Shown here: positions 1,879 through 54,190 of the stretch, in pieces | Position numbering within the stretch: position 1 is the first letter of the stretch | Layout of the letters: every line of letters begins with the position of its first letter | Assembly: GCF_029873635.1 (NCBI RefSeq) | Contig: NC_080423.1 | Location: 102,920,991 to 102,984,990 of the forward strand | Direction of reading: 5' to 3' | DNA from: Malania oleifera | Lineage: Eukaryota; Streptophyta; Magnoliopsida; Santalales; Ximeniaceae | Length of the DNA stretch: 64,000 nucleotides | The notes under the pieces: generated by a model | Database searches by the model: none | What the model was told of the DNA's origin: nothing | What the model saw: only the letters and a program-made list of their open reading frames with translations | Position numbers and translations under genes: made by a program

Positions 1879-2582
1879 ACCGTACTGGGTTCGGTTGACC
1901 GAACTGTATGAACTTCGGTCGACCAAGTCATTTTGAACTTGGTGGTTTGGTCGACCAGAAAATTGGGACTTCCCATGAGGTGGTTCGGTTCACCAAAGCA
2001 TTGCAGCTCATTTCTGATCGGTCAACCGAAGAGTCAACTTGCTAACCCCAGGCAGTTTCGGTCAACTAGGACGTTGGAGTACATTTCTGGTCGGTCGATC
2101 GAAGGGTCAAAATGTTGACTTAGTGGAGGTTCGGTCGACCGAATGCTTCTGTGCATTACAGTTCGGTCGACGGAACATCCCTTTTTTGAGCATTTCGGTC
2201 CTAGTCCCATTATTAAATTATCCCTATTCATATGATGATTGAATTTAATTCAAAAGGGCATATTTTAATGCAGACATGAGGGTCCTAAGGTTAGTCTAGG
2301 TCTTTTTGAGCATATCATCCTACTATGCATGATGCAGATTATTACAGACCATATTGTGGTACGGTCCATATTTAAATTATAGTCCATAATGAAGAATATA
2401 AAAATAATTACAAATACAACACAATTTTCTTCATTCTTCTGTGTGATCACCATACGCCATCATGATGTAACTTTCTGTTCAAATACACGCGTAGGGTAAA
2501 CCTACATGCAAGCTCATGACAAATGTCAGTACCAAGTGTATTTGTGATTATCAAAATCGGGATATGACCAATTAGGTCAACA
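1879..2582 (-). mobile_element. 3' LTR of S2 (visible part)
   Basis: Closely matches 22660-23363, the start of the S2 5' LTR on the minus strand, including the GGTCGACC-rich segment and the tail that reads TGTTGACCTAATTGGTC on the minus strand. It is followed (plus-strand right side) by a polypurine tract read as AAAAAAAGGGGAGA on the minus strand. The rest of this LTR lies beyond the insertion of LTR A. Confidence 0.75.
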
Positions 2583-3333
2583 ATCTCCCCTTTTTTTATG
2601 ATGACAAATACATTATGCAAAAGTGGGTACAGCCAAGAAAGGCTCCCCCTGACTATATGCATAAAGAGAATTAAAGCTTAATTATTTATGAAAGAACCCA
2701 ATTTTGCCTCTTCTCCCCATTTTGGCAACAGCAAAAAGGGCTAGGAAATATAGCACGAAGGCAACGGTCATTTAAATACAAAAGATAAATTGAGAAAATT
2801 TATGAAAAATTTGGCAGCATGTCATTTGAAAATAGAGTATTTCCCAAAATAAATTTGTACCTAAGTGACCTAATTGAGTTCAAATTTTCAATTATCCATA
2901 ATAGTCAACTCACACAATCTAGTATGCTCAAAAACAATAAAAAGGAGTATAACTATCAACATGCAATAGGTATGATGGTCTTGCATTGCAAAGCACAAAC
3001 AAGCTCATAAAGTATAAAGCAATTAAGCACACAAACAATAAAACTAGTTATTAAAATATTTAAATGACATGAAAAATATAGTTACACCAAAAATATCCTC
3101 AAACCATTGTAATTTAAGCATTTCATGAGACTTGCAAAAAATTTGAATTTGAAGACATGCGGTGTATAAAAAATAGGTTTGAGCATAAACATAGTCTAAC
3201 TAGTTCGCATGCATTTTTATATGTAGTTACTAAACCAGTCATGCGATTTTAAAAACATAAATGTATATAATGATAATATAAGGCAAGAAACAAAATTAAG
3301 TTTTGAAATTAGTTCTTGCCATAAAGTATTACA

Positions 3334-3379
<46 letters not shown>
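2583..3379 (-). mobile_element. S2 internal non-coding segment next to its 3' LTR
   Basis: Internal S2 DNA between the 3' LTR and the S3 insertion. It is AT-rich and I find no coding region. It holds at least two polypurine-like tracts on the minus strand: one directly abutting the LTR (2583-2597) and one at about 2641-2650 (GGGGGAGCC). It ends in a (TA)n microsatellite at 3338-3379, which was the landing site of S3. Confidence 0.6.
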
Positions 3380-5602
3380 TGTAGGCCTTACAAGGCTTAA
3401 TATCCTATTTTGATGCTAACAAACAAGTAGATCTTAACATGCTATGTTAAGCGATGTATTTTCAAGACTAAATGAAGAATGCAAGGTTAAAGAGTTCATG
3501 AGAGCTTGTACCTCAGATAAGGATGATTATATCAAACTTGAATAATGGATTTAAAGTTTAAAGCTTGAAGAACATGAGAGCATTGATATTAAAGAAACGG
3601 CTTCAAAGAATGAAAGCCTAAGTGATCAACATGCAAAGCTCAAAGAAAGATGAAACAAATATAAAGACCTCAAGGAATTCAAGAATTGAAAAAGTCTAGG
3701 AAATTTCATGTAAGTACTTCAAAGAATTTCAATATGGATACATAAAACTCTTAGATAAATTTATTGGACCTAGATACTTTTGAACATACTTGGAAAATAT
3801 TTTTATAAGGTCAAAAATTGTTTCAAAAAGGTTAGAATCATTTTTGGAATGAAAAGTACCAAAAAGAGGATATCTCAAATACTCTCAATTTTTCTACATC
3901 TGCGTTGATGTACATATTTCTCTATTAAAAATCATTATTTTAAAATGTGTTCAACATTAAAGTTGTAGTATTTTATCTTAGATTTCATTTGACACCAATA
4001 TCATCAAATTTTGAGTTACAAAGAAAAAGTTATGACCAAAATACTGAAGGGTGCTCGAAGCTGACAGCTTGGTGTTGCACTGACAGACGCCTATCCGTGT
4101 TCAAACAGGAGACTACCACCCTGCTGTATCTATAATTTAACTGGACAGAAAACTGCCACAAATGGACAGTTTACTGCCATGCGGCTGTTTTGATTTTTTT
4201 TCATAACGGTCAAATTTTTAAAAGAGGTTGCTTGGGGCTCAAAATTTGTAAAAACTTGAGGAATACTCCAAGACACTTGGGGATCAAGTTATACACTTTT
4301 TAAAGTCTATAAATAAGCCTCAAAGATCATTGAATCACGACACCAAGAATTCAATTTAGCAAAAATTCAAAAGCTATCTCAATTGCTCTCAAATTCTCAA
4401 GGCTCTCTTATGCTATCAAGCTCACATATTGTGCACGAATTCAACTGAGTTTTGTTGATCTTCTTCCACCAGAATTGTGCTACAAATTCTAAATCTTTCA
4501 ATCATTAAAAGAATTAATCGGTGATATACTTCATTAAGCTTCAAGTTAATTTTGATATTGTTGTTTACTTTGAAGTATATTAGTTGTGTTGTAATTGGTG
4601 TACTAACCAGCTCTTTGGGGAGCAAGTTCTTTGTACGCATCTATTTGATTTATTTCTTATAGATTGACGATTCCAAGGATTGTTTGGATCGTTGGCTAAG
4701 CAAGAGGATATTACTTAGAGAGGCGGGCTCTAACCTAATTAAGGAGTGATCGTACGAGGGGATATCATTTGGAGAAGGCGGGCTCTAGCCTTACCCAAGG
4801 AGTGTTGTAAAGGTTTGCTCCGCCCGTTAAAGGAACAAGTTTAGTGAATCCTTTGGTGGGTTGCCAAAGGCGAGGACGTAGGCTAGGTATAAGCTGAACC
4901 TCGTAAAAATCTCCGTCTCACTCTCTCTTTCCCTACTCTTTATTTTCAACACATATTTAAATTGCGTGGATGGTTTAAATTGGAAATCATATATACTACG
5001 TATATTTGGAAATCAAGTAAACTTTAAGTCTAATTTTGATTTGGGTTGCGGAAATCGAAAGGGAGTACGTTGATTAAACCATATTTAGATAAAACCATAC
5101 GGGAGTACGTTACTTAGTTAAACATCCCAAAGATAAATTAACTAAGAGTTTATTTGGATTTTGAATACTGGGAAGAGTGTTGGATTCCATATTACACATC
5201 ATATTAAAGAGGCAAATCCATTCATACAGGGCTTTATATCAGCAAGCATAACATTTCATATATACAGGGCTTAATTCAATTTTATATCCAAGGCATAACA
5301 TAAGTTATATTGTGATTGAATGATTTAAAGTTTTATATTGAGTGGATTGTGTTTATATTCCAGAAGGTGCTGAATCTTCCATCAATTTAAATAGTGCTGC
5401 AGAGAACTTATATTTGGCAAATAAATTGTGTTGTTGATTGGTTTAAAAGAACTAAGTTCTTGTGTGTTTGACAAATTAAATAAATAAGTCAAAATTTGGT
5501 TAAAAGAAATAAAAGAAGTTTAAGGATTTTTAAAAAGAATTAAAAGAAATTTTTATAATCCAATTCACCCCCCCCCCTCTTAGGACTACACCTTACTTTT
5601 CA
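3380..5602 (+). mobile_element. 5' LTR of S3
   Basis: Begins TGTAGGCCTTACAAGG and ends CCTTACTTTTCA just before the primer site. It holds a cluster of TGACAG/CTG-type palindromic motifs at about 4055-4190 and a TATA box (TCTATAAATAAG) near 4309. The distal part is the usual mix of short GC-richer stretches, ending in a C10 tract (about 5570) within the sequence that precedes the primer site in many Copia LTRs. Confidence 0.85.
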
Positions 5603-5604
5603 AT

Positions 5605-5616
5605 TGGTATCAGAGC
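5605..5616 (+). other. Primer binding site of S3 (initiator Met tRNA)
   Basis: TGGTATCAGAGC, complementary to the 3' end of plant initiator methionine tRNA, lies two bases after the end of the 5' LTR. Confidence 0.9.
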
Positions 5617-5659
5617 GGGGTTATAACAAATCTTAATTAGTAGCTATAAAAAGATCTAA

Positions 5660-7574
5660 ATGGCTAACTTAGGCGTAGCTCCCTTTGGAGAGGGATAATC
5701 TTCAACTAGGCCACCAATCTTTTGTAGACGCAACTATACATTTTGGAAAAAAAGAATGCAAATATACCTTCAAACGATGGATTGGAAAGCTTGGGAGGTT
5801 GTTATGGAAGGTGACCAAATTCCCACTAAGATAGTTGATGGAAAACAAGTCCCTGAGGAGAAAATTGATATGACAGACTTAGACTATAAAATGTTGCAAA
5901 TAAACTCTAGTGCTATGAATGCTCTATATTGTGCCTTAGATGCCAATGAATTTAATAGACTAATGGCTTGCAAATCAGCTAAGGAAATATGGGACAAGTT
6001 AGAAGTCATCTACGAAGGCACTATAGATGTTAGGGATAATAGGATCGATATGCTTACAAGGGAATATGAAGCTTTTAAGATGAACCCGGATGAATCTATA
6101 ACTAGCATGTTTACTAGGTTCACTCACATAATAAATTCCCTAAATACACTAGGAAAAACCTACACTACTTATGAAATGATAAGGAAAATTCTTAGAGGGC
6201 TGCCACCAAAATGGGAACCAAAAGCCACAGCCATAACTGAAGGAAAAAATATGAAAACAACTTACTTAGATGAGCTTATAGGTTCTCTACTTACATATGA
6301 AATGGCTATGAATGAAAAGAATGGAAAAATCAAAACCCAAGATTCAATAGCCTTCAAAGTCTTAAAAGACAACTCAAGTAGTGAAGAAGAAATGGATGAA
6401 GATGAAGTAGCCTTCATATCTAAAAAGTTAGCAAGAATACTAAGAAGAAGAAATAAATTCAAAAGAAGAAATCAAATATCTGAATCAGATGAATCAGAAG
6501 AAGAAATTAGCAAGAAATCAAAGAATAAAACTCCTATGTGCTACAATTGCAATAAAGTTGGACATATAAAACCAGAATGTCCACTACTACTAAAGAAAGA
6601 GCCTAAGAAGAAAAAGAAAAAGGTCATGAAAGCCACTACTTGGGACATGATGAGTACAAGTAGTTCAGAAAATGAATCAAGTGACCAAGAGATTGCTTAT
6701 ACATGCTTTATGGCTTAGGACAATGAGGAAAGTTCCTCATCTAAATCTTCAAATAATTCTTGTTGTGATGAATCCAATGATGAGAGAATACCATCATATG
6801 AAGAACTTCAAAATGATTTATTCAAAATTCATAAGATGCTGATTAAAGTAACTAAACAAAATACTTCATTGAAAAATATGAATGAAGGTATAATGAAAGA
6901 GATAGAATCCCTTAAGGCTGCAGAAAGAGAAAAGGTTTCTAGAATCAAGAAAATCAAAAGTAAGAATGAATCTATGACAAAAGAATTAGAATCCAAAAAT
7001 CTTTCTGAAAAGGAAAAAGACTTGAAAATCAAAGAATTGGAAAGCAAGAATGAAAGAATGATAGAAGACCTTCGATCCTTATCCTCTACGGTGTATGAGA
7101 AAGACATATATTTTTGAATTGGAGGATAATGTAAAAAAATTATCTTTAGAATCAAAGAAATTACAAAAGAAGGTTGATAATAAGAAAGACATTGAAATAA
7201 ATGATCTCAAGAATCAAATTAAAGATAAAGAAATGATCATTTATAATTTTACAAAAGGAAAAACAAACGTTGACAAAATGGTAGGCTCCCAAAGAATGTC
7301 TCTTAACAAAGAAGGCATTGGATTTAATGGAATTGAAAATAAAAATAAAATGAATCTTTACATGGGTTATTTCTCAAAAGCCTCCAAAGAAAATGCAAGC
7401 ACATCCTTTAATGCTTACACTAACACCATATGCTATCAATGTAAGAAAAAGGGGCATATCAAGTTTGAATGTCCATTCAAGAGAAAAGATGTAAAAACTA
7501 AACAAGTATGGAAAGTAAAAGAAACATCCTTTATCAAACCAACTAGACCCAAGAAAGTATGGGTACAGAGATGA
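5660..7574 (+). pseudogene. S3 gag fossil (UBN2-like domain, coiled coil, two zinc knuckles)
   Basis: Reads a Copia-type gag. The N-terminal part has the YTFWKKRMQ, INSSAMNALYCAL and EIWDKLEVIYEG signatures of UBN2/DUF4219 proteins. A CCHC knuckle (CYNCNKVGHIKPEC) is encoded at about 6538-6579. A Glu/Lys-rich coiled coil covers about 6836-7250. A second CCHC (CYQCKKKGHIKFEC) is at about 7431-7472, followed by a basic KPTRPKKVW tail. Two knuckles separated by a long coiled coil fit Sirevirus gag. Pol, which should follow the tail, is not recognised. Treated as a fossil; it is broken in a few places. Confidence 0.8.
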
Positions 7575-7739
7575 AAGACTAGTTCATAAATGAAAAACTC
7601 CATGGATTAAGTCATTCCCCTTTAAAAATTGAGAAAGTAACTTAATTCATGATCAACAAATAAGTTTAAGAGCTTATTATAACAAATTCAAAAATGACAT
7701 TGTTGGCAAAATCATAGGATTTTTTTTACAAAGCTTAAC

Positions 7740-8270
7740 TTAAGAAAATATCAAATTGAGCTTATTACATAAGTACTTCAAGTTGATTTAAGTATGATTT
7801 TTTTTTTGGCTCAGACTTAGAGACCTTAGTATAAAACTTGGAACAAGCTTTTCAAAGTTAAACAAGTTCATATTCCAAGATTATTTGAGCAAAGAAGAGA
7901 AAACTCAAAAACATGTTGAAATGAGGAAAATCTTGCTGACAGATGACTGTCTGTCTAGTGACGGACGACTGACATGTTTTTGAAGTGTTTTTAACACAAG
8001 TCAAAAGACTGACAGACGACTGTCAAGTAATGGACAGACGACTGCTAGTGACCAGTGCGCCGCCTGTGAGTGTTCTGCCAGACGACTGTCAGCCTTCTGT
8101 GTATATTGAAAAATTGATGTGTTCATAGACAGACAACTGTCACCATATGGACAGACACCTGTCACCCTTCTATTCATTTAAAAAAAAAAAACTTGGTTGT
8201 TTAGTGACGACGACTGCCCCCTATTGACAGGCGATTGCATAAATTTTTTTTTTAAGATATTTGAGAATGA
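7740..8270 (+). repeat. LTR-like fragment inside the S3 internal region
   Basis: This stretch resembles the upstream half of the S3-related solo LTR at about 16861-17300: the AAGTACTTCAAGT motif, the TATTCCAAGATTA segment, then a run of palindromic GACAGACGACTGTC-like motifs (7935-8240). It lies downstream of gag, where pol would normally be. It is either a truncated insertion or LTR sequence captured by the element. Confidence 0.6.
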
Positions 8271-8529
8271 AATGCTATATGCTACATGCTTACATGCCTA
8301 TATGATATGCTATATGCTACATGCTTACATACCTATGCTACATGATATACTTGATTCATATTGAAAATTTATGGCTCACTATGTTGAAAATTTGAGCATA
8401 AGATTATTGAGCAACAGCATGAATTTTGATATGAGATTAATTCTTGATCATGCATGCTATTGATGAATTACATGGATAGACTTACTGCTTTTTATATTGA
8501 TATCCATGAGCTATGAGAGATATAATGGT

Positions 8530-8985
8530 TATATTGGTATTCATGAGCTATGTATAATGTGATAATGACTTTGGTATCTATAAAGTTTTTGGTATCCATG
8601 AATATTTTTGGTATCACATTTTAAAAAATTTTAATTGGTATCACAATTTAAAAAAAAAAAAGAAAAAAAAGCTCATTTGGTATCACAATCTAAAAGATCA
8701 ATTGGTTTTTTAAAGCATGACAAGAATAATTATATTTATGAGCATGGTATAACATTGATGATATAAGCATAATATTGATATTTGATACATAATGTGAATC
8801 AATGTTTTGAAACATGGGATGATGAAAGCAAAATTGATAACAAAACTGAATGTATTGATTCAGGAGGAGTGTTATGTCATATTACTTATGTTATGATTGT
8901 TTCCCTACTAATCAATTCAGAGAATTTTCAATTGGTATCATGAATTAAATTTTCAATTGGTATCAATTCTCAAATTGGTATCATG
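8530..8985 (+). repeat. Array of TTGGTATCA motifs
   Basis: At least six exact TTGGTATCA copies and three near-copies (TTGGTATTC, TTGGTATCT, TTGGTATCC) lie within about 450 bases of the S3 3' non-coding zone. The motif equals the start of the element's own primer binding site (TTGGTATCAGAGC). Spacing is irregular. Confidence 0.7.
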
Positions 8986-9410
8986 AATTTTGAATACATA
9001 TCATGAATTCAATTTTAAAGCTGTTAGTAAAGATATAACTATTAAAACACACTACACATGCTATATTGAAAAATAAATTGAGTGTGTACATATGTTGATA
9101 TGTATGTTTGATGATATGCTCAACATGCGATTTTACTTGAACTTAATCATTTTTTTTTCCTTTTTGATAGATGTCAAAAGGAGGAGAAGTTTTAAATAAA
9201 AAATTGAACATAGTCTTGCAAATTGCAAAAGCTGAGCATGAACATAATATATATCAAAATGAGAAGTATTTGATAATGATGAGTATGATTGTAAATGAGG
9301 TTTTTGAAATTGATATTGATCTTGCAAATTTTGTTAAGATGATGCTTATTGAAAGGGAGAGTCTTTTTAAGGCTCACTCCAAATTTTTGCTCCTTATTTG
9401 TCATCATCTA

Positions 9411-9422
9411 AAAGGGGGAGAT
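9411..9422 (+). other. Polypurine tract of S3
   Basis: AAAGGGGGAGAT directly precedes the 3' LTR, the expected plus-strand primer. A related purine tract, AAAAGGAGGAGAAG, lies about 230 bases upstream (9176-9189), and another, CAGGAGGAG, near 8861. Confidence 0.8.
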
Positions 9423-12400
9423 TGTTGGCCTTACAAGACTTAATATCCTATTTTGATGCTAACAAATAAGTAGATCTTAACATGTTATGTTAAGTGATGT
9501 ATTTTCAGGACTAAATGAAGAATGCAAGGTTAAAGAGTTCATGAGAGCTTGTACCTCAGATAAGGATGATTATATCAAGCTTGAAGCATGGATTTAAAGT
9601 TTAAAACCTGAAGATCATGAGAGTATTGACATTAAAGAAACAACTTCAAAGAATGAAAGCCCAAGTGATCAACATGGAAAGCTTAAAGAAAAATGAAACA
9701 AGTATAAAAGCCTCAAGGAATTCAAGAATTGAAAAAGTCTAGGAAATTTCATGTAAGTACTTCAAAAAATTTCAATATGGATACATGAAGCTCTTAGATA
9801 AATTTATTGGACCTAGATACCTTTGAACATACTTGGAAAATATTTTTATAAGGTCAAAAATTGTTTCAAAAAGGTTAGAATCATTTTTGGAATGAAAAGC
9901 ACCAAAAAGAGGATTTCTTAAATACTGTCAATTTTTCTACATCTGCATTGATGTACATATTTCTCTATCAAAAACTCTTTATTTTAAAATGTGTTCAACA
10001 TTAAAGTTGTAATATTTTCTCTTAGCTTTCATTTGAAACCAAGATATTCAAATTTGGAGTTACACCAAAAAAGTTATGACCAAAAGAATGAAGGGTGCTC
10101 GAAGCTGACAGCTTGGTGTTGCACTGACAGACGCATGTCCGTGTTCAGACAGGCGACTGCCACCCTGCTGTGTCTATAATTTAACTGGATAGAAAACTGC
10201 CACAAATGGACAGTCTACTTCCACACGGCTGTTTTGATTTTTTTTCATAACGGTCAAATTTTTAAAAGAGGTTGCTTGGGGCTCAAAATTTGTAAAAACT
10301 TGGGGAACACTCCAAGATACTTGGGGATCAAGTTATATACTTTTTAAAGTCTATAAATAAGCCTCAAAGATAATTGAATCAAGACACCAAGAATTCAATT
10401 CAGCACAAATTCAAAAGCTCTCTCAATTTCTCTCAAATTCTCAAGGCTCTCTCATGCTCTCAAGCTCACATATTGTGCACGAATTCAACTGAGTTTTGCT
10501 GATCTTCTTCCACCGGAATTGTGCTACAAATTCTAAATCTTTCAATCATTGAAAGAATTAATCGGCGATATACTTAATTGAGCTTCAAATTAATTTCCAT
10601 ATTGTTGTTTACTTTGAAGTATATTAGTTGTGTTGTAATTGGTGTACTAACCTGTAACAAATTGCTTAACTTATCAAATAATAAGCATATTTATATATAT
10701 GATCAACCCAACCTGTGGGCAATGGGGATAGACCAATCATAAACAGTGGAAACCTAAGCAGCAGTAAGTATAAAATTACAACCATCCAACCATAAAACAT
10801 AATACCAGAGTCTACTTACACCAAAATAACATACATATATGTTCAATCTCCCATAACATTCCAAATACAACTGGGATCTCACAACAATATAATCCTGATC
10901 CTAGTACAAAATCTTACCCTCCTAGTAGGGTAACTTAACAAACTCAACGGTGGCCATGACCCGTCGGTCTCTCAGTGTCTCCTGAAAAATTAATTAAATT
11001 CGGGGGTGAGACACTTCTCAGTAAGGGAAAATAAACTAAATACAGTTGTGTGACAACATGAACATTTAATGCAATTATACATATACAGTACATTTTATAT
11101 ATCTATAAACATTCATCATATCGTATTGAATAATCATATACTTTCATATTTGCTAATAAATCATATCGCTCATAAGACATCTTTTATAACTGATAATACT
11201 AAAAACATACCCATGATGAATAGCTAGCTAGTGTCATGTATTACCCCCCACGACAGGTTGTGCAACCCAAAGGCGAGACCCGACAATGGTTCGCCGACTA
11301 CTGCCGAGTCAAAAATGTTTGTAAGTACGATGGGCCCGCCACACCCTAGTTCGGACTGTCAGGTGGACGTCTACACTCTACACTGAAAGCCACATCGACT
11401 ATCCATCTCCCACCCCCTCATGGGGTGGTTAGCACCAATCTGATCATATCTGATCTATAAGTTACGGTACCGAGCTCTTGAAACTGAACTAAACTAACAT
11501 CCGGATTCTGATAACATATAATACATGATATTATAACATTTTTCATAATTTCACAAATACGGCCTCACGCCGAAAATCATTTCATAAATACGACCTCACG
11601 CCAAACATTTCATAAATACGGCCTCGCACCGAAATCATTTCATACATATCATTCTAAAAATAATCAATTATCATGTACTTATCAAAATCATCATAATATA
11701 CTATATCTTTTCATAACTCCTAAAAACATGTTTTATTCGTAAAATTTGTCATATCATTACTTTCCATGAAAAATAACATTCATGCCACACAAGTTAAATA
11801 ATTCCGTACATTTCATTCTAAAATCACATTTTCCGTATAATAGCAGTATTTTCCCAATAACATACATTGTCTCAATAATATTCAAATATCATGCATATTT
11901 TCCTGAAAATTAATTTACCAATAAATAATAATAATACGCGTGGAAAATAACTACTTTAGTTTATTCCCTTACCTGGCAACTAAAAAGTCCCTATGAATTC
12001 CTAGACTCACACCCGTAGGATTTCCTAATCAATACCCTGAAAATGAAAACTCTCAGTACTAAAATTCAATATTTTCACGTGAATATCATTTCCTGTAACT
12101 ATGAAAAGACCAAATTCGGCATAAAAAGTCTTACCTTAATTGGGACGAATTTCAACTTGCTCTCACCAATGATCTGCTCCAGTAAAAATGAAAAGAACTT
12201 CTCCAATAGCGTCGTGATGGCTTCAAATTTTCGAACCAGCAAAAATCTCGCTCAAAATCGAAGAGAAAGGAGAGAGGAACCGTAGAGGAGAGAGAGGGTA
12301 AGAAGATTTTTGATTTTTCTACGTTTAATCCGAGTTTTACACTATTTATACTAGTGGCTTCGTCGACGAGCCACGTCACCTCGTCGACGAGGTCAATAGT

Positions 12401-13688
12401 AATTTCATCGACGAGCTCTTTCCTTTGTCAACGAAATTCAAAGTCGCCCCAAAAACCTCTCGGTATTTTCTCGTCGACGAAACTTGTCTTCGTCGATGAG
12501 GTCCTCTTGTACCCTCGTCGACGAGTCTCCTACTTTCGTCGATGAGGACCTGATAATTTTCTTGGTTCATTACTTCCCAAAATGCAACGTCGTCGACGAA
12601 CATGAAGCATTCGTCAACGAAGTCAGCTGCCTCCTTCTGTTACTATTTCCATTTCCATCCCTCTTTATTATTTAAATATTATAATTTCTCCAGGTCATTA
12701 CATAACCAGCTCTTTGAGGAGCAAGTTCTTTGTACGTATCTATTTGATTTATTTCTTGTAGATTGACGATTCCAAAGATTGTTTGGATCGTTGGCTAAGT
12801 AAGGGGATATTGCTTAGAAAGGCGGGCTCTAGCTTAGTTAAGGAGTGATCGGATGAGGGGATATTGTTTGGAGAAGGCGGACTCTAGCCTTACCCAAGGA
12901 GTGTTGTAAAGGTTTGTTCCGCCCATTAAAGGAACAAGTTTAGTGAATCCTTTGGTGGTTTGCCAAAGGCGAGGACGTAGGCTAGGTATAAGCCAAACCT
13001 CGTAAAAATCTCCATCTCACTCTCTCTTTCCCTACTCTTTATTTTCAGTACATATTTAAATTACGTGGATGGTTTAAATTGGAAATCATATATACTACGT
13101 ATATTTGGAAGTCTGATTTTGATTTGGGTTGCGAAAACCGAAAGGGAATACATTGGTTAAGCCATATTTTGCGAAAACCATACGGGAGTACGTTACTTGA
13201 TTAAACATCCCAAAGATAAATTAACTAAAAGTTTATATGGATTTTGAATATTGGGAAGAGTGTTGGATTCTATATTACACATTATATTAAAGAGGAAAAT
13301 CCATTCATACAGGGCTTTATATCAGCAAGCATAACATTTCATATATACAGGGCTTAATTCAATTTTATATCCAAGGTTGATAACATAAGCTATATTGTGA
13401 TTGAATGATTTAAAGTTTTATATTGAGTGGATTGTGTTTATATTCCAGAAGGTGTTGAATCTTCCTTCAATTTAAATAGTGTTGCAGTGAACTTATATTT
13501 GGAAAATAAATTGTGATGTTGATTGGTTTAAAAGAACTACGTTCTTGTGTGTTTGACAAATTAAACAAACAAGTCAAGAATTGGTTAAAAGAAATAAAAG
13601 AAGTTTAAGGATTTTTAAAAAGAATTAAAAGAAATTTTTATAATCCAATTCACCCCCCCCCCTTCTTGGGACTACACCTTACTTTTCA
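9423..13688 (+). mobile_element. 3' LTR of S3, interrupted by solo LTR B
   Basis: Matches the 5' LTR from TGTTGGCCTTACAAG to CCTTACTTTTCA. The two parts, 9423-10652 and 12703-13688, abut perfectly in the other copy at 'TACTAACCAGCTC', so the insertion point is certain. It carries the same TATA box (near 10351) and the palindromic motif cluster at about 10105-10215. Confidence 0.85.
10653..12702 (-). mobile_element. Solo LTR B (Gypsy-type family 1)
   Basis: 2050 bases flanked by a perfect 5-bp duplication TAACC (10648-10652, 12703-12707), with TG...CA ends extended into a short inverted repeat (TGTAA...TTACA). No internal region or second LTR is present, so it is a solo LTR. On the minus strand it reads: start, array of TTCGTCGACGAA-like palindromes (12612 to 12360), TATA near 12350, leader, hairpin-type CGGCCTC..GCCG repeats (11645 to 11545), conserved TTACTGAGAAGTGTCTCACCCC module near 11010, end. 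Confidence 0.9.
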
Positions 13689-16454
13689 TATACATATAAA
13701 TATATATCCCCCTTTTGATATTTGCAAAAAGTACTGGGGGTGCTTGCTGAAAAAGAAGCTTTAAAGATCAGGTAAGCACAAATTTTCTGGTTTGTCAATT
13801 AAGCACATAAACTAATATAACCAGAAAACCACAACCATAATTATCTTAAAGATTTAACAATCACATGCAAGATCATATGGCAACCACAAAGAATGTGTGG
13901 CCAAGTATTATATTTTTCAATTAAGATATTCAATAAGCTCATCACAATTGAGCACGAGCCACAGTGAATAACAAACTGATCTAAGTCAAAAATATTCGTG
14001 AGCATAACAAGATAGAAATTTAATTTCATATGCTCCCCCTATCAATTTGAGTACGTACTTAGATTCTTTAACTACTTATGCTATCCAAAGATTAATTTTA
14101 TTTTGCTCAGTAGTATAAGTCATTCATTTTGAAACTTTAAAATCATCTATACTGAATATTAATCAACTTTATTTACCCCTATCAGTATAGCTGTCCCTAT
14201 ACACCATAGATGCATTAGAAAAGTGTATATTAAGGCATGCAATAGAGTTCATGACCCACGAACATTCCATATCTAAATATATAGCTTTAAAAGCTGGATA
14301 TGATGTTCAGGGTTCTTAGAAGAGTCTCAATATTCAAAAATCAAAGCATGATGCAAATGAGTTCTTTATGCTCCTTTTCTAGGGATGAATTTTAGCTTTT
14401 CTAAATATTTGATGATTATGCCAGGATGAAGTTAATATTCAATCAGTTTTCACTCATCCTTTCAAAAATATTTTATCATTTATTATATTATAATCATCTA
14501 CATATAAGGTTTTATTTTGGGAAAAAATTTTCGAAATTTCGGCAACATGTCCTCAGTAAATTAGACATTTTCCCATAAAACTTATACCTGATAGGTTCAA
14601 TCAAGCAATTTATAATTCAGTTCAAGGCACACGAGAACCTAAAATCACTACCAGCATGCAGTACACATTAACTGCATCCGCCATGCAGGAGGCTTTCAAC
14701 ACAAGCATGCAATCAGGTAGTACAATCAATAGTTCAATAAAAATATGCTATCCATAAAAAATATTTAGCTAATCAGTATGCTATAGATAGCAATGTGTAA
14801 TTTAGTTCCCATAAAGGCATATAAGCATATAGTATGATATTGGATCCAAAGAACATTTCAATTTATAGCCATAGAAGATAAATGCTACCCCTGAGTTATG
14901 TGCTAAACCATTTTATGCCTTTTTTCATTATCTAATTACTTAGTCAAGTGTTTTAGATTTTTCGTGATTTAATCTTGGCATATTATACTTAGTCTTAGAG
15001 GACCAAAACGTCACAATGAATATTTCTTTGAATGTTCTAAGCCTATATTTGTCTCTTTTCTTGTGATTTACAATATGTGAGAGGCCTAAGTTAGAATGAC
15101 TTTCGATTTAAGAAAAAGCACAAACATAGGTCTACTTGAATTTTATACATTCATCTAGATTGAGACCTAGTGCAATCATATTAGCCATTCAACTCATCTC
15201 TAAGTATATAAAGCTCTAATGGTGTGACTTAAAGTTTGGGAGCTTTGTGTGAGAAGGATTCCTTAAACCACAAGCTAGTGCAATGCACAAAAGGTATGCT
15301 TAGCTTTAGATATTCATATTTAAGCGTGAGTTAAGAAATTTGAAATTTAAATACAAGGCAAACATGCCATGTCCATTTGGAAGTGAAGTTTTATTCAAGC
15401 TGCCAATAATTTTATATTTTAACCAATGAATATATGCATTAAGTTCAGATTGGTTATTTTGCTTGAATTTCTGTATTGGCTTAATCTTTCAAGATCCTTA
15501 GTATGTAAAGTTTTGAATAGTGGACATATACTAAGTTTTTTACATTTTCAGCCTGAACAACTTCCTAAGCCTTTAATCAACACTACCCCCTATAGCTAAT
15601 CCTAAATGTTAGGGAAGAATTATGTGATCATGTAATTCCTATTTAAGTAAATTCTTTCTTGAATTTCAAGGGGTTTGTTTTCTTAACAACCCATACCATT
15701 TTTCTATCTTTAATTCTTGATGGGTCAGGAGTCGGTGATTCTTTGCCTTTCCATACTCATTTGGGTTTCACACCTTTTCTTTTAAACGGACAATCAAATT
15801 TTATGTGACCCTTCTTTTTACACAAGACACATGTGGTGTGAGTGTATGGACTGGAGGAGGTACTAGCATAATGTTTTGATTCTTTTACAAAGTACCCCAT
15901 GTATAGGTTCTTCCTTTTCCTATTTTCAATTCCATTCAAACATATACCTTCCTTATCTAAGGTCATCTTTTGTGAACCTAACAACTTATTAAAGTTGGCC
16001 TTGCCTCTAATGAACGTGTAGATGATCTTAGATTGGTCTTCTACTTTCTTTTCTAGCTCATGCATTTTTAAGTTCTTAAGACCTTTTCAAACATCTTGTA
16101 ATTTAATAAACTCTTTAGTCATCTTGTTTGCTTTGCATTCAAGTTCTGCAATGAGAAGATCGTTATTATTAGCACTTGAAGATCGAGATCTTACTACATT
16201 CAATTCTTTTTCTAATTTTTCATTCTTGTTTACTAACTACTTAATTTTTAAATCATTTTCCCTTTCAACAAGAACTTTTGATTCACATTCTTTCTCACAT
16301 GCCTCATACTTGTTCTTCAAAGCAGTATATCTCTTATTAGCTTTAACAAACGACTTATGAATTCTAACATATTCAATTTGCAATTCTTCATAAGTAGGCA
16401 TGCTCTCACTATCAGAATTATCATATGATTCAGTATCAGATGCATCATTCAATT
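13689..16454 (-). mobile_element. S2 internal segment with gag remnant and purine tracts
   Basis: Internal S2 DNA between S3 and the S3-related solo LTR. Positions 15757-16452 encode, on the minus strand, the back part of gag: an acidic-Ser stretch, a coiled coil, and a CCHC knuckle (CVLCKKKGHIKFDC, about 15789-15831). To the left, 13689-15750 has no recognisable coding region but carries polypurine-like tracts on the minus strand (AAAAGGGGGAT at about 13708-13718 and AGGGGGAGC at about 14032-14040). Confidence 0.65.
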
Positions 16455-18584
16455 TGTTGGTCTTATAAGGCTTAACATGTTATTTTGATGCTAACAAACA
16501 AGTGGAACTTAACATGCTTTGTTTAGTGATGTCTTTTCAGGACTCAATGATGAATGCAAGGTTAAAGAATTCATGAAAGCTTGTACTTCAAAGAAGGATG
16601 ATTATATCAAGCTTAAGGCATGGATTAAAACTTGAAGATCATGAGAGTATTGATATTAAAGAAAAAGCTTCAAGAATGAAAGTTCAAGTGATCAACATGG
16701 AAAGCTCAAGTGATCAACATGGGAAGCTCAAAGATCAATGAAGCTCAAAATCTAGAACAATATTGAAAGATCAAGACAGATATTCAGGATTATTGAAGCT
16801 CAGCAATAAAAGAGAACTCAAAGCAAAGAAGAGTCAAATGAGTCTTTAGAACAAGCTTTGTAAGTACTTCAAGTATGATTCAAGTATGGATTTTCATTTT
16901 TAAGCTCATTAGGCAAAGAAATCTAGAAACCTTGTTTTTAAGTCTTGGAGCTTATTTTTCAAAGAAAAACAAATTGATATTCCAAGATTAAATAAACAAA
17001 GAAGAGAGAGAACAAAAATATTTTAAAATAAGAAAAAATTGCTTGATAGGCGACTGACTGCACGTGGATAGTTAACTGCCCTGTTAAAAAGTTTTAAATA
17101 AAGAGACAGAAACATGACAGTCAACTGTCTAAAACTTGACAGGCGACTGTCAGTGAAAATTGAGACGACTGTCTGAGTTTTGATAGTCAACTATCACCCT
17201 TCTGCTCATCTTTAAAAAACTCAATTATTCAGTGATAGGCGCCTGACTCCCTGTTGACAGGCGACTGCCACCCTACTGCCTGTATATTTTATATGTGAAA
17301 TACACTGACAGGCGACTGCCAGAGACCTCACAGTTAACTGTCACATGGCAGAATTTAAAATACATAATGGACATATTTTAAAAAATTTAATTACTTGAGG
17401 TTCAAACTTATTTAAATCTTGGACCCTACTCCAAGTAAACTTGGGGAACAAGCTATATACTTTTCTACATCTATAAATACACCCAAGTTAAATTGTTTTA
17501 ATCACCAATAATCAAATTCAGCTAAAAAAAACTCTCTCAACTGCTCTCATCATTGAAAGGCTCTCTCTTACTCTCAACTCGCACGAAGCTTACTGAGTTC
17601 TTGCTGATTCTTACTCACTAATATTGTGTTACAAATACTAATTCTTTCATTCATTGAAAGAATCATATGGTGAAATATTTCTAGAGCTTCAATCTGAATT
17701 TCATGTTGTGAATCACATTGAAGTATATAGTTTTGAACTGTACTAATCAGCTCTTTTAGAAGCAATTCTTTGTACATCTATTTGATTTTTATCTTGTAGA
17801 TATTGATGGTTCAAGGTTATTTAGATCGTTGGCTAAGCGTGGGGATATCGCTTAGAGAGGCGGGCTCTAGCCTAATCAAAGGAGTGTTGTGTAAATGGTG
17901 TTGTTCCGCCCAAAAAAGGAACTGGTTTTAGTGTATCCTTTGGTGGTTTGCCAAAAGCGAGGACGTAGGCTGGGTATAAGCCGAACCTCGTAAATATTTC
18001 GGTCTCACTCTCTCTTTCCTTTACTCTCTTTATTTTCTATACATATAAAACTGCGTGGATGTTTTAAATATATAAATCATATACACTACGAGGATTAGAT
18101 ATTAAATAAACTTAAACTTAATTTGTTTTTGGGATTGCGGAAACCAAAAGGGAGTACGTTGGTTGATCAATCTTTTACAGAAATTGTAAAGTAGTACGTT
18201 GATTGATTCAACACCCCAAAACTCTTTAACTTAAAGTTTATTTAAGGTCTAAGTATTTAGAAAGAGTGATTGGACGTTGTATTGGATATCAAATTGAGAG
18301 ACAAATTTCATATATACAGGGCTTGATTCAAATTTATATAAACAGGGCTACACACAAGTTGAAAAAGTTGAGAATTTCTATTAAGTTGTAAAGTATATCT
18401 TGATTGAATGTTTTATTATTGATTGGCTTGGTTAATTGGTTTGATTGAATGGTTGTGGATTGAATAAAAGAATTAAGTTATTGTGCATTATCAACAAAAG
18501 GTTAAGTTTTCATTAAAGAGGTTCAAAGAAAATTTTAAAACCCAATTCACCCCCCCCCCTCTTGGGACTACATTTTAGTTTTCA
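16455..18584 (+). mobile_element. Solo LTR related to S3, inserted in S2 gag
   Basis: 2130 bases flanked by a perfect 5-bp duplication CAATT (16450-16454, 18585-18589). It starts TGTTGGTCTTATAAGG and ends TTTTAGTTTTCA, clearly related to the S3 LTR but diverged, so probably another subfamily. About nine TGACAG-N4-CTGTCA-type palindromes occupy 17041-17350, upstream of a TATA box (TCTATAAATACA) near 17469. A C-rich tract near 18549 sits where it does in S3. Confidence 0.9.
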
Positions 18585-18589
18585 CAATT

Positions 18590-19138
18590 CATCACATGAA
18601 TTATTACTAGATTTATCTAATAACATAGGAGGAGACGAGTTTACCTCATCGTTGGTTAGAGCTATGAAGCACGGTTTACCTCCTTCAAGATCCGTAGAGC
18701 TTGAATAACAAGGAGTGATTGTCTTTTCCTACATAGTTGCTCCATATATCCTTTCAAGTTCCTCCCATATCTCCTTAGCACCATTACATGTCATAACCTC
18801 ACAAAAAACATTAGAATCTAAAGCATGCAGTAAGGTATTCAAGGCATCAAAATTTATTTGCACTAAGTTCTTATCATTATCATTCAGCTCAAATTTAGAT
18901 TTAGGAACATCAACACCATAAATGATTTTTACTGGAATACTATCTCTTTGTGCAATAACCTCCCAAAACCTCCAATTTAAAGTTTTAACAAATACGGTCA
19001 TCCTAAATTTCCATACAACATAATTATCACCACAAAATACTGGAGGTTTCGTAACTAACCTCCCCTCATATGAAGGGGATGCACTAATACGAGTCATCAT
19101 GATCTTTTACTAAATTATGTTTAAGTCTAAGTGACGAG
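18590..19138 (-). pseudogene. S2 gag fossil, N-terminal part
   Basis: On the minus strand this encodes a Copia gag N terminus starting MMTRISASPSYEGRL, with the UBN2/DUF4219 hallmarks PPVFCGDNYVVWKFRM, NFDALNTLLHALDSN and GAKEIWEELERIYG. It lies just downstream of the S2 primer site and is separated from the rest of gag by the solo LTR at 16455-18584. Treated as a fossil. Confidence 0.75.
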
Positions 19139-19150
19139 ACTCTGATACTA
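19139..19150 (-). other. Primer binding site of S2 (initiator Met tRNA, diverged)
   Basis: The minus strand reads TAGTATCAGAGT directly after the LTR end, two differences from the TGGTATCAGAGC site complementary to initiator Met tRNA. Confidence 0.75.
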
Positions 19151-19152
19151 AT

Positions 19153-22100
19153 TGTTAGCTTTGGTGCAATCCCAAGAGGGAGTGAATTAGAGATTTAAAA
19201 ATTATGCCTAGGTTTATCTAATCATACAATCAGTATTACGCAACCTAGGGGGCAGTCTAAGCAGTTTCAAACCCAAGCAGATATTCAACCCATAAACATA
19301 CAAGTGCAGAAAATAAAGTACGAAAAATAAACTGACACCAGATATGTTATCGGGGTTCAACCAAAATGTATACGTCCCCGCCTTGGCTCACCAGCACAAG
19401 GATTCCACTACGGCTCACTTAACAGGTGGAGCGGCACCATTTACAACCACGTTAATTAGCGGGGCTAACCTCAACCTACACCTTACTAGGATGGTACACC
19501 TAACTTTCCTAACCGGGTCTAAGCCAATCTGGGACTACTCAACAAGGCTAGTCTCCCTCTTTCGACCCACGCTTGGAATACAACAAATGTAATTTTTGCG
19601 TACATGGAAATATGCTTCTACACAAGCAAATATATACTGCAATACAGTCCAGATAATATGCAAGCACGGATGATAGTAAATATGCTCAGTATTTAATAAT
19701 GTGCTATACACTCAATCTAATGTAAATCTATAGTTAATAATCTAGAGTATATTCCCAAGCAAACTTTGAAATAAATAATCAAGGTAAATCAATCAGCACA
19801 AGTTTCAAAGTATTCTAACAATAATATTCAAAATATCTCAAACAAGATTTTCTCAAAATAATGGTTCAAGAGATATTTGAAAAACATGTAAGCTTGTGAA
19901 AAATATTTTACAAATCAAAATCACATAAACTTGATGAGTCTTGCAACCAAGATGCAAAAACTCACTAGCTACATGTAATGACCCGAAGAATAATGGTATT
20001 TAAATAAAAAAAGAAAGGGAAATGGAAACCAGAAACAGAAGGAGGCAGTCAAGTTCGTCGACGAACACTGCACTTTGGAAGGAATAACCGAGGGGAATCA
20101 TCAGGGCTTCGTCGACGAATATAGGGGATTCGTCAACGAAGGTTTAAGAGAATTCGTCGACGAAGACTGAATTTCGTCGACGAAGAAATACCGAGAGAGG
20201 TTTTGAGCTAACTGAATTTCATCGACGAGGACTAAATTTCGTCGACAAAATTATTAAAGGATTCATCGACGAATGACGTGGCTCGTCGACGAATCTAGTT
20301 CTATAAATATAGAAAAATCTAGGTTTACTTCACAGTTAAGCTATTTTCATTTTCTCGCTCTCCCCTTCGGTTCTCTCTCTCTCTTTCGTCGATTTCAGGC
20401 TAAATTTATACCGAATCGACAATCCGAAGCCACCACGACGCTCTTGGAAAAGTTCTCTCCAAATCTGCCGGAGTGGATCGTTGGTGAAAGCAAGATGGAA
20501 ACCATCCCAAATCCAGGGTAAGGCTTTCTACTCAATATTTGGATTTTTGACAGTTGAGGAAAGTGTTATACGCTTAGAAATATTGTTTCTTGGGTGTTAA
20601 GTTGAGAACCCTGCGAGTGTGGGGCAGATTTTCTTAGGGGCTTTTCAGGAATCAGGTAAGGGGATAAACTAAGCTAGTTCTTTTTGAGAAAATGTATGTA
20701 TATATATATACAGCATTTGATTTTCAGAAAATAAATATATTTATATATGATTTATATTTTGGGAAATACTGTTGAAAATGATCGTATGTTGAATAAGCGA
20801 AAAATCTGTTAGTGTGGCATGAGTATAAAATGTTGTGAAATACTGTTATTTGGAAATATGATTATGATATGGATTTTAATAATGAAAAACCGACGTACGG
20901 TCCAAGATTTTTATATATTTTTTCAGCGTACGAGTCGTGCTATGTGTATGATTTGTTAGTGTACGGGCTGAGCTATGGATATATTTTGCCAGCGTACGGG
21001 CTGAGATATGGATATATTTTTTCGGCGTACAGGCCGAGCTATGGATGTGATTTGCCAGCATACGGGTTGTGCTATGATTTGCCGGCATACGAGCCGAGCT
21101 ATGATAAAATGTGAAATACCGGCGCACGGGCCGATGATTTTCATGATATACGTATATATGCAAAATGACATGATTGATTTGATAATTAATGATATAAGAT
21201 ATCCATGTATTACAGTTTTAGTATATGTTATATGATATCAGAACCTGGTTGTCTTAGTCTAGGCTAGCACTTGCACAGTATCATTGCTATGTGTCCATGG
21301 TTTTCGTGATCATGATATCTGTGTTAACGCCGCTGTACGGAGTGATGTGAGATTGGATGGTCGATGTGGTTTATAAGAAGTGTGTGATCGCCCCTAGTGT
21401 ACAGACCAGGTCTGACAGACCCATCAGACTTACAGACTGTACTTTTGACTTGGCAATGGTCGGCCAACCATTGTCAAGTCCCGCCTTCAGGCCCCACAAC
21501 CCAATCATGTGGGAGTAATGCATGACAACAGTCAGCTAACCTACCAGGAATGTTTTTGTATTATTATTATATGAGATGATATATGTTCATGAAATGCAGT
21601 ATGTTCTGCCATATTTTGATGATATATATATATATATGTTTCCCAGATTTGAAAAAACAGTTACTGAATATATTATGTATGGTATATGTAGAACACGGAA
21701 TACTCATGTTGTCACACACGAGTATTAGTTTATTTTCCTTACTGAGAGGTGTCTCACCCCAAAATTCTATAAATTTTTCAGGAGCCCCTGATAAGAGAGT
21801 GGGTAAAGCCCCGCTGATATAGTACGGTTGGTCTGCCTTTTCAGAAGGGTAAGTATTTTGATAGGGTCAAATGTATTTTGTGAAATGGCCTTAAGACATC
21901 TTTTTGGGTTGAGTGTTATGTATATATGTATACAGTGATTGTAGTAACTCTGGTATTGTGATGTATGGTATAACGAGATGTATATGATTGTATGTTTCCT
22001 GTTGCTTAGACTTCCATTTCGTGTTCTGATGTATCCTTGGTACCCTCGGGTCAGGTGGATTATGATCTGCTGAACTGGGATTTATGATATTGATTTTATT

Positions 22101-23363
22101 ATATTTTGAAAAAAAATGTGAAAATTAAGCCGGTCGTCACACTACAAGGGTTTTCCCATACAAAGATTTATTATTTAAATCGGGGGGAAAAACCCTAACT
22201 AGAACTCTCTATGAAAAAATCAATCAATCAACAACTAGGAGAGTTCAAGCACTTTGAATCACTCAACAACACTCTTACAAACTTGGATTTCTCAAAGGAA
22301 TAGCAAAGGGTGGATGTATGAGCTTATATGTGAAGAAAAGACCCTTAAAATTTCAGAGAATTTTCAAGTTAATCTAAGTGCTAATCATCTCCTAATTTTG
22401 CAAATGAGACCCTATATATAGACTTAGCCAATTTTATAATTGTTGGGGACCTATTAGTTATTTCTAAAAAAGTTTAAATGAGGTTAATAAAAATAATAGC
22501 ATTTTTAACCTCGGTAAATTTTGACAACCTGAGAGCATCGGTCGACCGACTTGAGTGTTCGGTCGACCAAAGTGCTCAATTTGGTCAACCAAGTAAAATT
22601 TGATCTATGCATTTGGTCTGCCATTCATAAGGCGATTCCTGAACCTCTGAGGTTCAATCGATCGTATTGGGTTCTGTTGACTAAACTGTACGAGCTTCGG
22701 TGGAGCAAGTCATTTTGAACTTGGTGGTTCGGTCGACCAAGAAGTTGGGACTTCCCCCGAGGTGGTTCGATCGACCAGAGCATTGCAGCTCATTTCTAGT
22801 CGGTCGACCGAAGTGTCAACTTGTTGACCCCAAGGAGGTTTGGTCGACCAGGATGTTGGAGTACATTTATGGTCGATCGACCAAAGGGTCAAAATGTTGA
22901 CCTGGTAGAGGTTAGGTCGATTGAATGCTTCTGTGCATTACAGTTTGGTCGACCGAACATGCTTTTTTCGAACATTTCAGTTTTAGTCCCTTTATAAAAT
23001 TATCTCTATTTATATGATGATTGAATTTAATTCAAAAGGGCATATTTTAATGTAGACATGAGGGTCCTAAGGTCAGTTTAGGTCTTTTTGAGCATATCAT
23101 CCTACCATGCATGATATAGACTATTACATACCATATTGTGTACAGTCCATAATTAAATTACAGCCCCGAATGAAGAATATAAAAATAATTACAAATACAA
23201 CACAATTTTCTTCATTCTTCTGCGTGATCACCATACGCCATCGTGATATAACTTTCTATTCAAATACACGCGTAGGGTGAACCTGTATGCAAGCTCATGA
23301 CAAACATCAGTACCAAGTGTATTTGTCATTATCAAAACGGAGATATGACCAATTAGGTCAACA
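19153..23363 (-). mobile_element. 5' LTR of S2, interrupted by solo LTR C
   Basis: On the minus strand it runs from TGTTGACCTAATTGG (23363) to GGGATTGCACCAAAGCTAACA (19153), about 2.04 kb without the insertion. GGTCGACC palindromes fill 22540-22960 and lie upstream, on this strand, of a TATA box (CTATATATAGG) near 22425. The GGGATTGCACCAAAGC end followed by the Met primer site is typical of plant Copia elements. Confidence 0.8.
19974..22141 (+). mobile_element. Solo LTR C (Gypsy-type family 1)
   Basis: 2168 bases flanked by a perfect 5-bp duplication CTACA (19969-19973, 22142-22146). It starts TGTAATGACCCGAAG and ends CCGGTCGTCACA. Nine TTCGTCGACGAA-type palindromes (20055-20295) precede the TATA box TCTATAAATATAG near 20302. 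A CT-rich leader follows. Tandem units built on GTACGGGC-GAGCTATG fill 20887-21130. The conserved module TTACTGAGAGGTGTCTCACCCC is near 21741. It is the clearest copy of the family in the window. Confidence 0.92.
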
Positions 23364-38264: not shown

Positions 38265-38329
38265 TGGCGCCTGCAACTGGTTCGAAATCAAGTTCAAATT
38301 TATTTGAAGACTCTAGGGCTTCCAAAACA

Positions 38330-44478: not shown

Positions 44479-44544
44479 GTTAGGACCCAAATATGATGTT
44501 CGTTTTTTGATTTGGCCGAGAAATGGAGAGAAATCTTAGAGAGA

Positions 44545-44554
44545 GAGAGAGACG

Positions 44555-44594
<40 letters not shown>

Positions 44595-44710: not shown

Positions 44711-44758
44711 TTTTTATTTTTTTACACTTCCATGCATATTATTTTGGGGATCGTTACA

Positions 44759-50384: not shown

Positions 50385-50427
<43 letters not shown>

Positions 50428-54145: not shown

Positions 54146-54190
<45 letters not shown>

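Follow-up and report, generated by a model that had tools for sequence, protein, structure and literature searches.

The region analysed here, referred to below as the window, is a stretch of 64,000 nucleotides from the genome of Malania oleifera (assembly GCF_029873635.1, contig NC_080423.1, positions 102,920,991 to 102,984,990 of the forward strand), which by its content is plant DNA with nested long terminal repeat (LTR) elements. A sequence-only reading of it had seen unrelated LTR families converging on a single plan, an array of short palindromes upstream of the TATA box, in one family of Gypsy type (family 1) and in Copia elements (S2, S3 and a relative of S3). The layout holds up and occurs in both Copia and Gypsy elements. 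One part of it belongs to known Sirevirus biology, and another is a Gypsy version for which no report was found.

Family 1 is represented in the window by seven LTRs of about 2 kb each, six of them with both ends inside it. Target site duplications (TSDs) of 4–5 bp flank all six complete copies, and the seventh is truncated by the left window edge. Upstream of TATA, all seven hold between five and ten near-copies of TTCGTCGACGAA. On the plus strand, such arrays are found in f1c (array 20054–20293 with nine palindromes, TATA at 20302; LTR 19974–22141, TSD CTACA), f1d (array 42548–42676 with five decayed palindromes, TATA at 42702; LTR 42467–44478, TSD GTTAG), f1e (array 49634–49830 with seven palindromes, TATA at 49841; LTR 49563–51786, TSD AGTGT), and f1f, the most divergent copy (array 53865–54054 with eight palindromes, TATA at 54074; LTR 53795–55717, TSD CCATA). 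The minus-strand copies are f1a (array 1651–1797 with six TTCGTCGACGAA-type palindromes, TATA at about 1642; LTR 1–1878, cut at the window edge), f1b (array 12359–12621 with ten palindromes, TATA at about 12350; LTR 10653–12702, TSD TAACC), and f1g (array 59737–59902 with seven palindromes, TATA at about 59725; LTR 57877–59988, 4-bp TSD). By one rule applied throughout, 52 TTCGTCGACGAA-type sites lie in the 1,978 bp upstream of TATA in the seven LTRs, compared with 18 in the 12,389 bp downstream, which confirms the family 1 arrays of the sequence-only reading. The array begins about 70–90 nt inside the LTR, follows a start-to-start spacing of approximately 20/24/20/46 nt with gaps at missing units, and stops 8–25 nt short of TATA (8, 8, 8, 25, 10, 19, and 11 nt in the seven copies), after which come TATA and a CT-rich stretch. 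Downstream of TATA, family 1 LTRs also contain repeated units of about 33 nt (CAGCGTACGGGC..., window 20891–21129 and 50600–50773).

Further copies were obtained from a random sample of the genome (20 pieces of 10 kb at round coordinates on seven contigs), 12 of whose 20 loci match the family 1 profile. The array statistics include ten LTRs from eight of these loci, two of them without an LTR start, and omit L044 (with a cut unique 3′ region, U3), L053 (a fragment without LTR start), and L038 and L042 (3′ fragments). The array precedes TATA in every one of the 17 family 1 LTRs looked at, a set recruited by similarity to family 1 itself.

A purine tract lies immediately upstream of three of the ten further LTRs (in L037, L039, and L050). 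Because all three of these relatives hold Gypsy pol domains upstream of the tract, family 1 is Ty3/Gypsy; the array plan therefore covers two superfamilies. L037 holds RVP_2 (2.6e-39), RVT_1 (2.9e-12), RT_RNaseH_2, and SH3_Tf2-1, in this order, upstream of a family 1-type LTR. L039 holds RVT_1 (7.5e-12), RT_RNaseH (5.8e-28), and SH3_Tf2-1, with an extra opposite-strand LTR between the purine tract and pol, and L050, where the available stretch starts past the reverse transcriptase (RT) core, holds RT_RNaseH and SH3_Tf2-1 (8.2e-26). The Ty3/Gypsy domain order—protease, RVT_1-type RT, RNase H, and then integrase—is thus present in L037 and partly in L039 and L050, although the integrase core and the chromodomain gave only matches below threshold (Integrase_H2C2, 16.7 bits against a cut-off of 25.5 in L050; Chromo, 17.2 bits against 25.1 in L037). 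These pol domains uphold the Gypsy-type call, and the family did not turn out to be Copia, the outcome that the sequence-only reading had itself named as contrary to its proposal. In L044 (8548–8710), a family 1 U3 start joins a Gypsy integrase-like sequence directly, as judged by eye, resembling a deletion or recombination joint.

The family 1 LTR profile also matches the LTRs of element X (best 2.8e-48, broadly collinear), with zero matches to the Sirevirus LTR pieces described below or to reversed X. Element X (window 39826–53004) is a minus-strand, Gypsy-like element with a decayed RT, whose LTRs are interrupted by f1d and f1e. Its RVT_1 fragment is weak (5.4e-4, below the cut-off), a PDB search with the RT piece returned weak similarities, 13 in number and almost all to HIV RT (best E 0.17), and no retroelement domain was found in the eleven further protein pieces searched. 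The U3 portion of its 3′ LTR (44479–44759, minus strand) offers a natural contrast, since this family 1-homologous LTR has an AT-rich U3 and no palindrome array; arrays are therefore not universal even among homologous LTRs.

Of the Copia elements, S2 lies on the minus strand. Its 5′ LTR runs leftwards from 23363, is interrupted by f1c, and bears an array of TTCGGTCGACCGAA-type palindromes at 22537–22957, 116 nt from a TATA at about 22420, and its 3′ LTR runs leftwards from 2582, is cut by f1a, and bears the same kind of array at 1890–2175. By their layout, both stretches appear to come from a single nested element, split by later insertions, as its 5′ and 3′ LTRs, and are therefore counted as one case rather than two. 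Purine tracts at 2585–2720 (minus strand) end in a terminal AAGGGGAG, one mismatch away from AGGGGGAG, followed by AT/TG; exact copies of the tract lie at 2643 and 14033, and a near-copy at 2713. All four loci fetched with the S2 word resemble the S2 LTR. In two cases only, at window 1878/1879 and at about position 1276 of L041, an S2-type LTR has a family 1 LTR lodged in its palindrome array.

S3 is a solo LTR on the plus strand (16455–18584, TSD CAATT), with TGACAG-N4-CTGTCA sites arrayed at 17044–17343 and a TATA at 17471, 127 nt further on. Its relative, also on the plus strand, has a 5′ LTR at about 3380–5602 (ends set by eye) with a weak S3-type array at 4062–4179 and a TATA at 4307, a strong cluster of the S3-type palindrome at 7937–8240, between gag and the 3′ LTR, and a polypurine tract (PPT)/3′ LTR junction at 9413–9424 whose sequence, AGGGGGAGATTG, is identical to the published Sirevirus twelvemer. 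Both the S2 arrays and the gapped S3-type sites of the sequence-only reading are thus confirmed, the relative being weak in its LTR and strong in its internal cluster.

Several features make S2 and S3 look like Sireviruses of one lineage. The PPT octamer AGGGGGAG plus AT/TG adjoins the 3′ LTR as an exact AGGGGGAGATTG in the S3 relative, with one mismatch as AAGGGGAGATTG in S2, and exactly in the S2-type locus L041. The repetition of the octamer ahead of the 3′ LTR, a further Sirevirus mark, is less clear-cut, with one exact copy in the S3 relative, two exact copies plus near-copies in S2, and four copies in L041. The polyC integrase signal at the LTR 3′ end reads CACCCCCCCCCCTCTTAGG in the S3 relative, CACCCCCCCCCCTCTTGGG in S3, and, in weaker form, CACTCCCTCTTGGG in S2. 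Retrotran_gag_2, a Copia-type gag domain, is matched at 9.9e-31 by the S3 relative and at 1.2e-5 by S2 (25.3 bits, below the cut-off of 27), and L041 shows an RVT_2 match at 1.8e-4, also below the cut-off. No pol piece was noticed for S2 or the S3 relative in the window, where no search aimed at pol was made; with gag noticed and no pol, the S3 relative (5605–9422) and S2 (2583–19157) may be gag-only, non-autonomous derivatives.

Since S2 and S3 look like members of one lineage with a published array, they are not independent cases, and the proposed lack of relationship among the LTR families holds for family 1 (Gypsy) against S2/S3 (Copia) but not between S2 and S3. The claim of a common position relative to TATA likewise stands in part: all the arrays lie upstream, but TATA follows the last palindrome after 8–25 nt in family 1 and after 116–127 nt in S2/S3, a roughly tenfold difference. 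As to the motifs, that of S2 (TTCGGTCGACCGAA) holds a CGG-CCG core, and that of S3 does not. The GTCGAC centre common to S2 and family 1 is confirmed, with 37 of the 38 GTCGAC sites of the window in LTRs of one or the other; both also have TTCG ends, although S2 units are mostly spaced 32–40 nt apart rather than 20/24.

A further Copia group, S4, was first reached at L048 through a blind array scan described below, and its LTRs start with TGTTAGCCC. The S4 junction AGGGGGAGATTGTTAGCCC has 15 exact occurrences, against none for the control, and at least two PPT octamers are present in 7 of the 12 loci fetched. L048 matches the PPT-bearing LTRs of L066 and L061 at 78–80% over 1.5 kb. Among 12 PPT-bearing S4 LTRs, three hold four to seven GTCGAC-type sites (L061, L066, and L065), four hold one or two, and five none. 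Two more loci, L058 and L059, were found through the word ACTCGTCGACGAGT, and it is the ends of their LTRs that place them in S4. L058 is similar at its 5′ end to the PPT-bearing L062 (78% over 86 nt) and to L069 and L063. L059 is similar to L058 at its 5′ end (81%, 69 nt), and in its 3′ part to L048 (76%, 152 nt) and L062 (73%, 135 nt).

The arrays of L058 and L059 resemble those of family 1 beyond the palindromes themselves. Their spacing is 21/25/21/46 and 20/24/20/48, respectively, compared with 20/24/20/46 in family 1, and among the window arrays that of f1g is the most similar to the L059 array. Only the array pieces of these two LTRs match the family 1 profile, the flanking LTR on either side giving no match at E up to 1. 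The match is stronger in sense than in antisense (90.2 versus 50.9 bits for L059, 43.9 versus 13.4 for L058), and because palindromes match both strands equally, this excess comes from the spacers. In a spacer-only score in fixed register, computed against 14 pooled family 1 LTRs (seven from the window and seven random, omitting L050 and, in L051 and L039, the second LTR), L059 reached 54.7 (shuffles −41.3 ± 11.6) and L058 31.0 (shuffles −32.6 ± 11.1), with 0 of 3,000 shuffles as high in either case. The S2 control was null, and a common descent of the S2 and family 1 arrays was accordingly rejected. In a stretch picked post hoc, the 14 nt with which the long spacers begin, L059 agrees with family 1 at 12 and 13 positions (0 of 20,000 shuffles) and L058 at 8 and 10 (P 0.05 and 0.005).

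The combination of array and S4 LTR is multi-copy. A query of 141 nt across the junction of both gave 402 first-look candidates, and all 40 that were scored (L059 included), from many contigs, are 88–100% identical over at least 134 nt of it. Five same-strand pairs among them lie 7.7–10.2 kb apart, like the two LTRs of one element. Between the members of one such pair, two reads of 600 nt (L076) hold an RVT_2 domain on the same strand (1.3e-59), the stretch that follows it is 70% identical over 47 residues to the Copia fragment of L041, and the left LTR of the pair contains the 301-nt array at 90% identity. Elsewhere, an S4 pol was sought in L073, with Gypsy-like pol pieces on the other strand only (by eye), and in L074, with nothing clear; L075 gave no PDB match and no Pfam family of note. 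Spacer homology, together with RVT_2 between a junction pair, points to Copia elements whose array shares its descent with the Gypsy one, and the S4 array is best read in this way. Module exchange thus appears to account for at least one likeness between Copia and Gypsy, a row of palindromes having passed between superfamilies, and convergence, which the sequence-only reading had offered as the overall explanation, is not sustained for this pair.

Taken jointly, these arrays are probably promoter-proximal modules of dimer sites in U3, and the Gypsy module has probably been exchanged with the Copia group S4. According to this proposal, the modules would be regulatory: a host transcription factor would most likely bind each palindrome as a homodimer, and many such dimers, recruited by the row of palindromes, would drive the TATA promoter of the LTR. 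Loopless palindromes are expected to make poor single hairpins and good dimer sites, and the succession of array, TATA, and CT-rich stretch looks like an activator platform. S2 and S3 would represent the known Sirevirus array of repeated motifs, and family 1 the same kind of array in a very abundant Ty3/Gypsy clade. The module would have crossed superfamilies as one piece, by a putative route such as template switching or gene conversion, perhaps in the direction from Gypsy to Copia, and would then have multiplied along with its new carrier, with a putative benefit to the element. More tentatively, and with rather more doubt than the exchange itself, the palindromic enhancer module may move independently between Ty3/Gypsy and Ty1/Copia elements, S2 having reached a near-identical dyad on its own through one host dimeric protein. 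A heat-shock-element reading of TTC...GAA was dropped given that the spacing does not fit.

Several points weigh against this proposal. Mirrored outer positions of the palindromes do not covary (Fisher p 0.76), so that selection on symmetry is unsupported and covariation was rejected as an argument for it. Between copies, spacers vary in length no less than downstream windows of the same size do; a constraint on spacer length was rejected as well, and the regular spacing is therefore taken as inherited. L048, L061, and L066, also S4, are null in the fixed-register spacer test despite sharing their spacing with family 1. This test was run after a register-free one, in which L059 is significant (84 against 69.9 ± 2.7), L058 falls below its shuffles (77 against 84.1), and L048 is not significant (51 against 47.6); the register-free test is itself weak, since the family 1 positive control L046 failed in it (three of four controls passed). 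L058 and L059 contain no internal region and are thus assigned by LTR homology, the Copia polymerase was read in another copy, the right LTR array of the RVT_2-bearing pair falls outside the 40 scored places, and the analysis covers a single genome.

If the proposal holds, retrotransposon promoters evolve as modules that can be exchanged across superfamilies, and the reasons for the dominance of certain LTR families in a genome, a long-standing question, would become testable. On the more tentative reading, the module would have become, in its carriers, one of the commonest regulatory words of the genome, and unrelated retrotransposons would compete for, and trade access to, one host activator.

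Among the alternatives, the one that survives best, although unlikely, is that the palindromes in U3 transcripts fold, feed small RNAs, and direct methylation to the LTR, with the arrays persisting as a by-product or a trap. Base composition and decay bear on it. The CpG observed/expected ratio is 1.41–2.06 in the seven family 1 arrays against 0.73–0.94 in the rest of the LTR, and 0.99–1.08 against 0.49–0.53 for S2, with a small difference in S3 (0.52 against 0.40). At the CpG bases of the 52 family 1 palindromes, 31 of 33 changes are C>T or G>A, and the other 44 changes from the family 1 word affect non-CpG bases, mostly the outer pair. This bias is as expected of copies methylated after their insertion, a decay that fits past methylation but does not make silencing the cause of the arrays. 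Four whole arrays also form more stable folds than their dinucleotide shuffles (z −5.25, −5.11, −7.90, and −4.56, with no shuffle as good), compared with z −0.2 to −2.7 for five control segments, but a 146-nt part of the f1c array reaches only −1.71, and since any palindrome array folds automatically, folding does not decide between activation and silencing. The palindromes of family 1 and S2 are, moreover, loopless. In maize, the palindrome clusters of Sireviruses are described as small-RNA hotspots in passages of PMC5311732 and PMC10760457, although the latter also states that, for the most part, Ty3 elements show no clear peak of such miRNA-like structures.

Pure convergence, in which a single host factor driving unrelated LTRs led each of them independently to GTCGAC-centred dyads, is less probable still. 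It draws on the GTCGAC core and TTCG ends that S2 has in common with family 1, in spite of different spacing and without spacer homology, and on the abundance of the core. In the random pieces, GTCGAC has the highest ratio of the 64 six-base palindromes (66 seen against 11.2 expected), but 46 of the 66 sites have array-like neighbours, so that the excess is largely due to arrays. Convergence leaves the spacer sequence common to family 1 and L058/L059 unexplained, and the sharing of one of 64 possible centres by S2 and family 1, noticed post hoc, is weak alone. GTCGAC was found upstream of none of the three host genes of the window, recognised by eye as CTP-synthase-like (25285–35560), small coiled-coil (37670–38270), and helicase-like (60870–62700).

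Relatives were also sought in viral contigs. The conserved LTR word had no match there, and an RT piece found no relatives. The array word had 32 matches of 28, 31, or 34 nt, 31 of them with a GC content of 0.58–0.75 (L024, 0.40); given lengths that are multiples of three apart, these sequences are probably phage coding DNA, and they were rejected as relatives.

The weakest alternative, the passive tandem duplication of a word that was palindromic by chance and has no function, is very improbable. Some of its traces are present: the spacing is inherited, some spacers repeat (CACAGGGT/CACAGGGC in f1g), and spacers of equal length within arrays are 0.42 alike (15 pairs), against 0.28 for letter shuffles. 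Within arrays, however, palindromes are 82% alike and spacers 42%, a comparison biased upwards by picking the sites by similarity, and the array precedes TATA throughout the family 1 LTRs, as stated above with the caveat on their recruitment. A blind scan of 264 kb for interspersed, GC-containing arrays of at least six near-copies returned 45 arrays, of which 13 of the 21 of family 1, S2, or S3 type are perfectly palindromic, compared with 1 of the 24 others (Fisher p 4e-5). Types were assigned by eye, with one ambiguous array counted as S2 (12 of 20 and p 1e-4 without it) and one counted as family 1 type (L048) later moved to S4. The palindromes of these arrays are thus more than a by-product of repetition: duplication contributes to the arrays, but repetition alone does not yield palindromes here. 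A looser scan returned 190 arrays, 24 of which are perfectly palindromic; many of these 24, among those listed, are AT-rich.

Controls on chance within single LTRs are divided. With perfect arms of 6 and 100 dinucleotide shuffles for each of 11 LTR pieces, the region upstream of TATA beats all shuffles in four (f1c, f1g, the S2 5′ LTR, and S3) and fails to do so in seven, f1d being without any such palindrome. Pooled over the seven family 1 LTRs, these palindromes number 16 upstream (about 3 expected) and 18 downstream (about 12 expected). Among palindromic 8-mers of the random pieces (two-letter words excluded), CGTCGACG ranks first (21 seen against 0.11 expected) and GGTCGACC second (9 against 0.54). 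Exact counts over the 1.49-Gb genome give 37,861 for TTCGTCGACGAA (67 for its reversed control), 3,249 for TTCGGTCGACCGAA (1 for the control), and 1,348 for ACTCGTCGACGAGT (4 for the control), the latter not being S4 alone, because two of its four loci (L057 and L060) are family 1 LTRs. A search for repeated 10-mers that took no account of symmetry put TCGTCGACGA first in six of the seven family 1 U3s and a version shifted by one base in the seventh; the top 10-mers of S2 and S3 are parts of their palindromes (at best four of five pairs symmetric), and the top words of the S3-relative LTR and element X are AT-rich and non-palindromic.

Other arrays were seen in the course of this work. L043 (4139–4279) holds seven copies of non-palindromic, GCCACGTCAGC-like words shortly past a junction resembling that of an LTR and a primer-binding site. 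Words of the CGTCACTAA type recur at intervals of about 38 nt in L051 (4040–4432), L045 (4363–4660), L048 (7791–8026), and L055 (1349–1604), in arrays that resemble the subterminal repeats of CACTA transposons.

Palindromic LTR arrays have so far been described as a trait of Sireviruses, that is, of Copia elements. A search of the open-licence literature by titles and the starts of abstracts found no report of a palindrome array in Gypsy elements, nor of an array or LTR chimera across superfamilies. In the parts of PMC1950507 (Sabot and Schulman 2007) drawn on here, template switching between co-packaged RNAs is a possible route to chimeric LTRs, but the chimeras concerned are complex three-LTR elements with similar parents rather than promoter modules passed from one of the superfamilies Copia and Gypsy to the other. 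The palindromic cis-region of maize Sireviruses (Bousios et al. 2016, as cited in PMC5311732 and PMC10760457) is, like the arrays described here, rich in palindromes, and is linked to small RNAs; the citing passages concern Copia Sireviruses and contain no array shared across superfamilies.

The closest known system is the repeated motif (RM) of Sireviruses, taken here from portions of Bousios et al. 2010 (PMC2829016), in which 13 of 21 Sireviruses have palindromic motifs, in LTR clusters ahead of TATA, and the RM is specific to Sireviruses among the Ty1/copia elements compared. The repeated motif given there for Vitis, CGGTCGACCG, equals the core of the S2 motif, and S2 is therefore an ordinary Sirevirus array. 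S3, on the other hand, is like Tnd-1, the one exception to the CGG-CCG core listed in that source, in that its motif lacks this core. The arrays of the window agree with those of the RM in consisting of multiple copies of short, CpG-rich palindromes upstream of a conserved TATA, with internal copies in some elements. Unlike the RM as described there, family 1 belongs to Gypsy, its word TTCGTCGACGAA is without the CGG-CCG core, its array lies near the start of the LTR, and it is shared with a Copia group. Family 1 thus has one trait of the RM, a palindromic array of high CpG content upstream of TATA, and departs from it in core and lineage.

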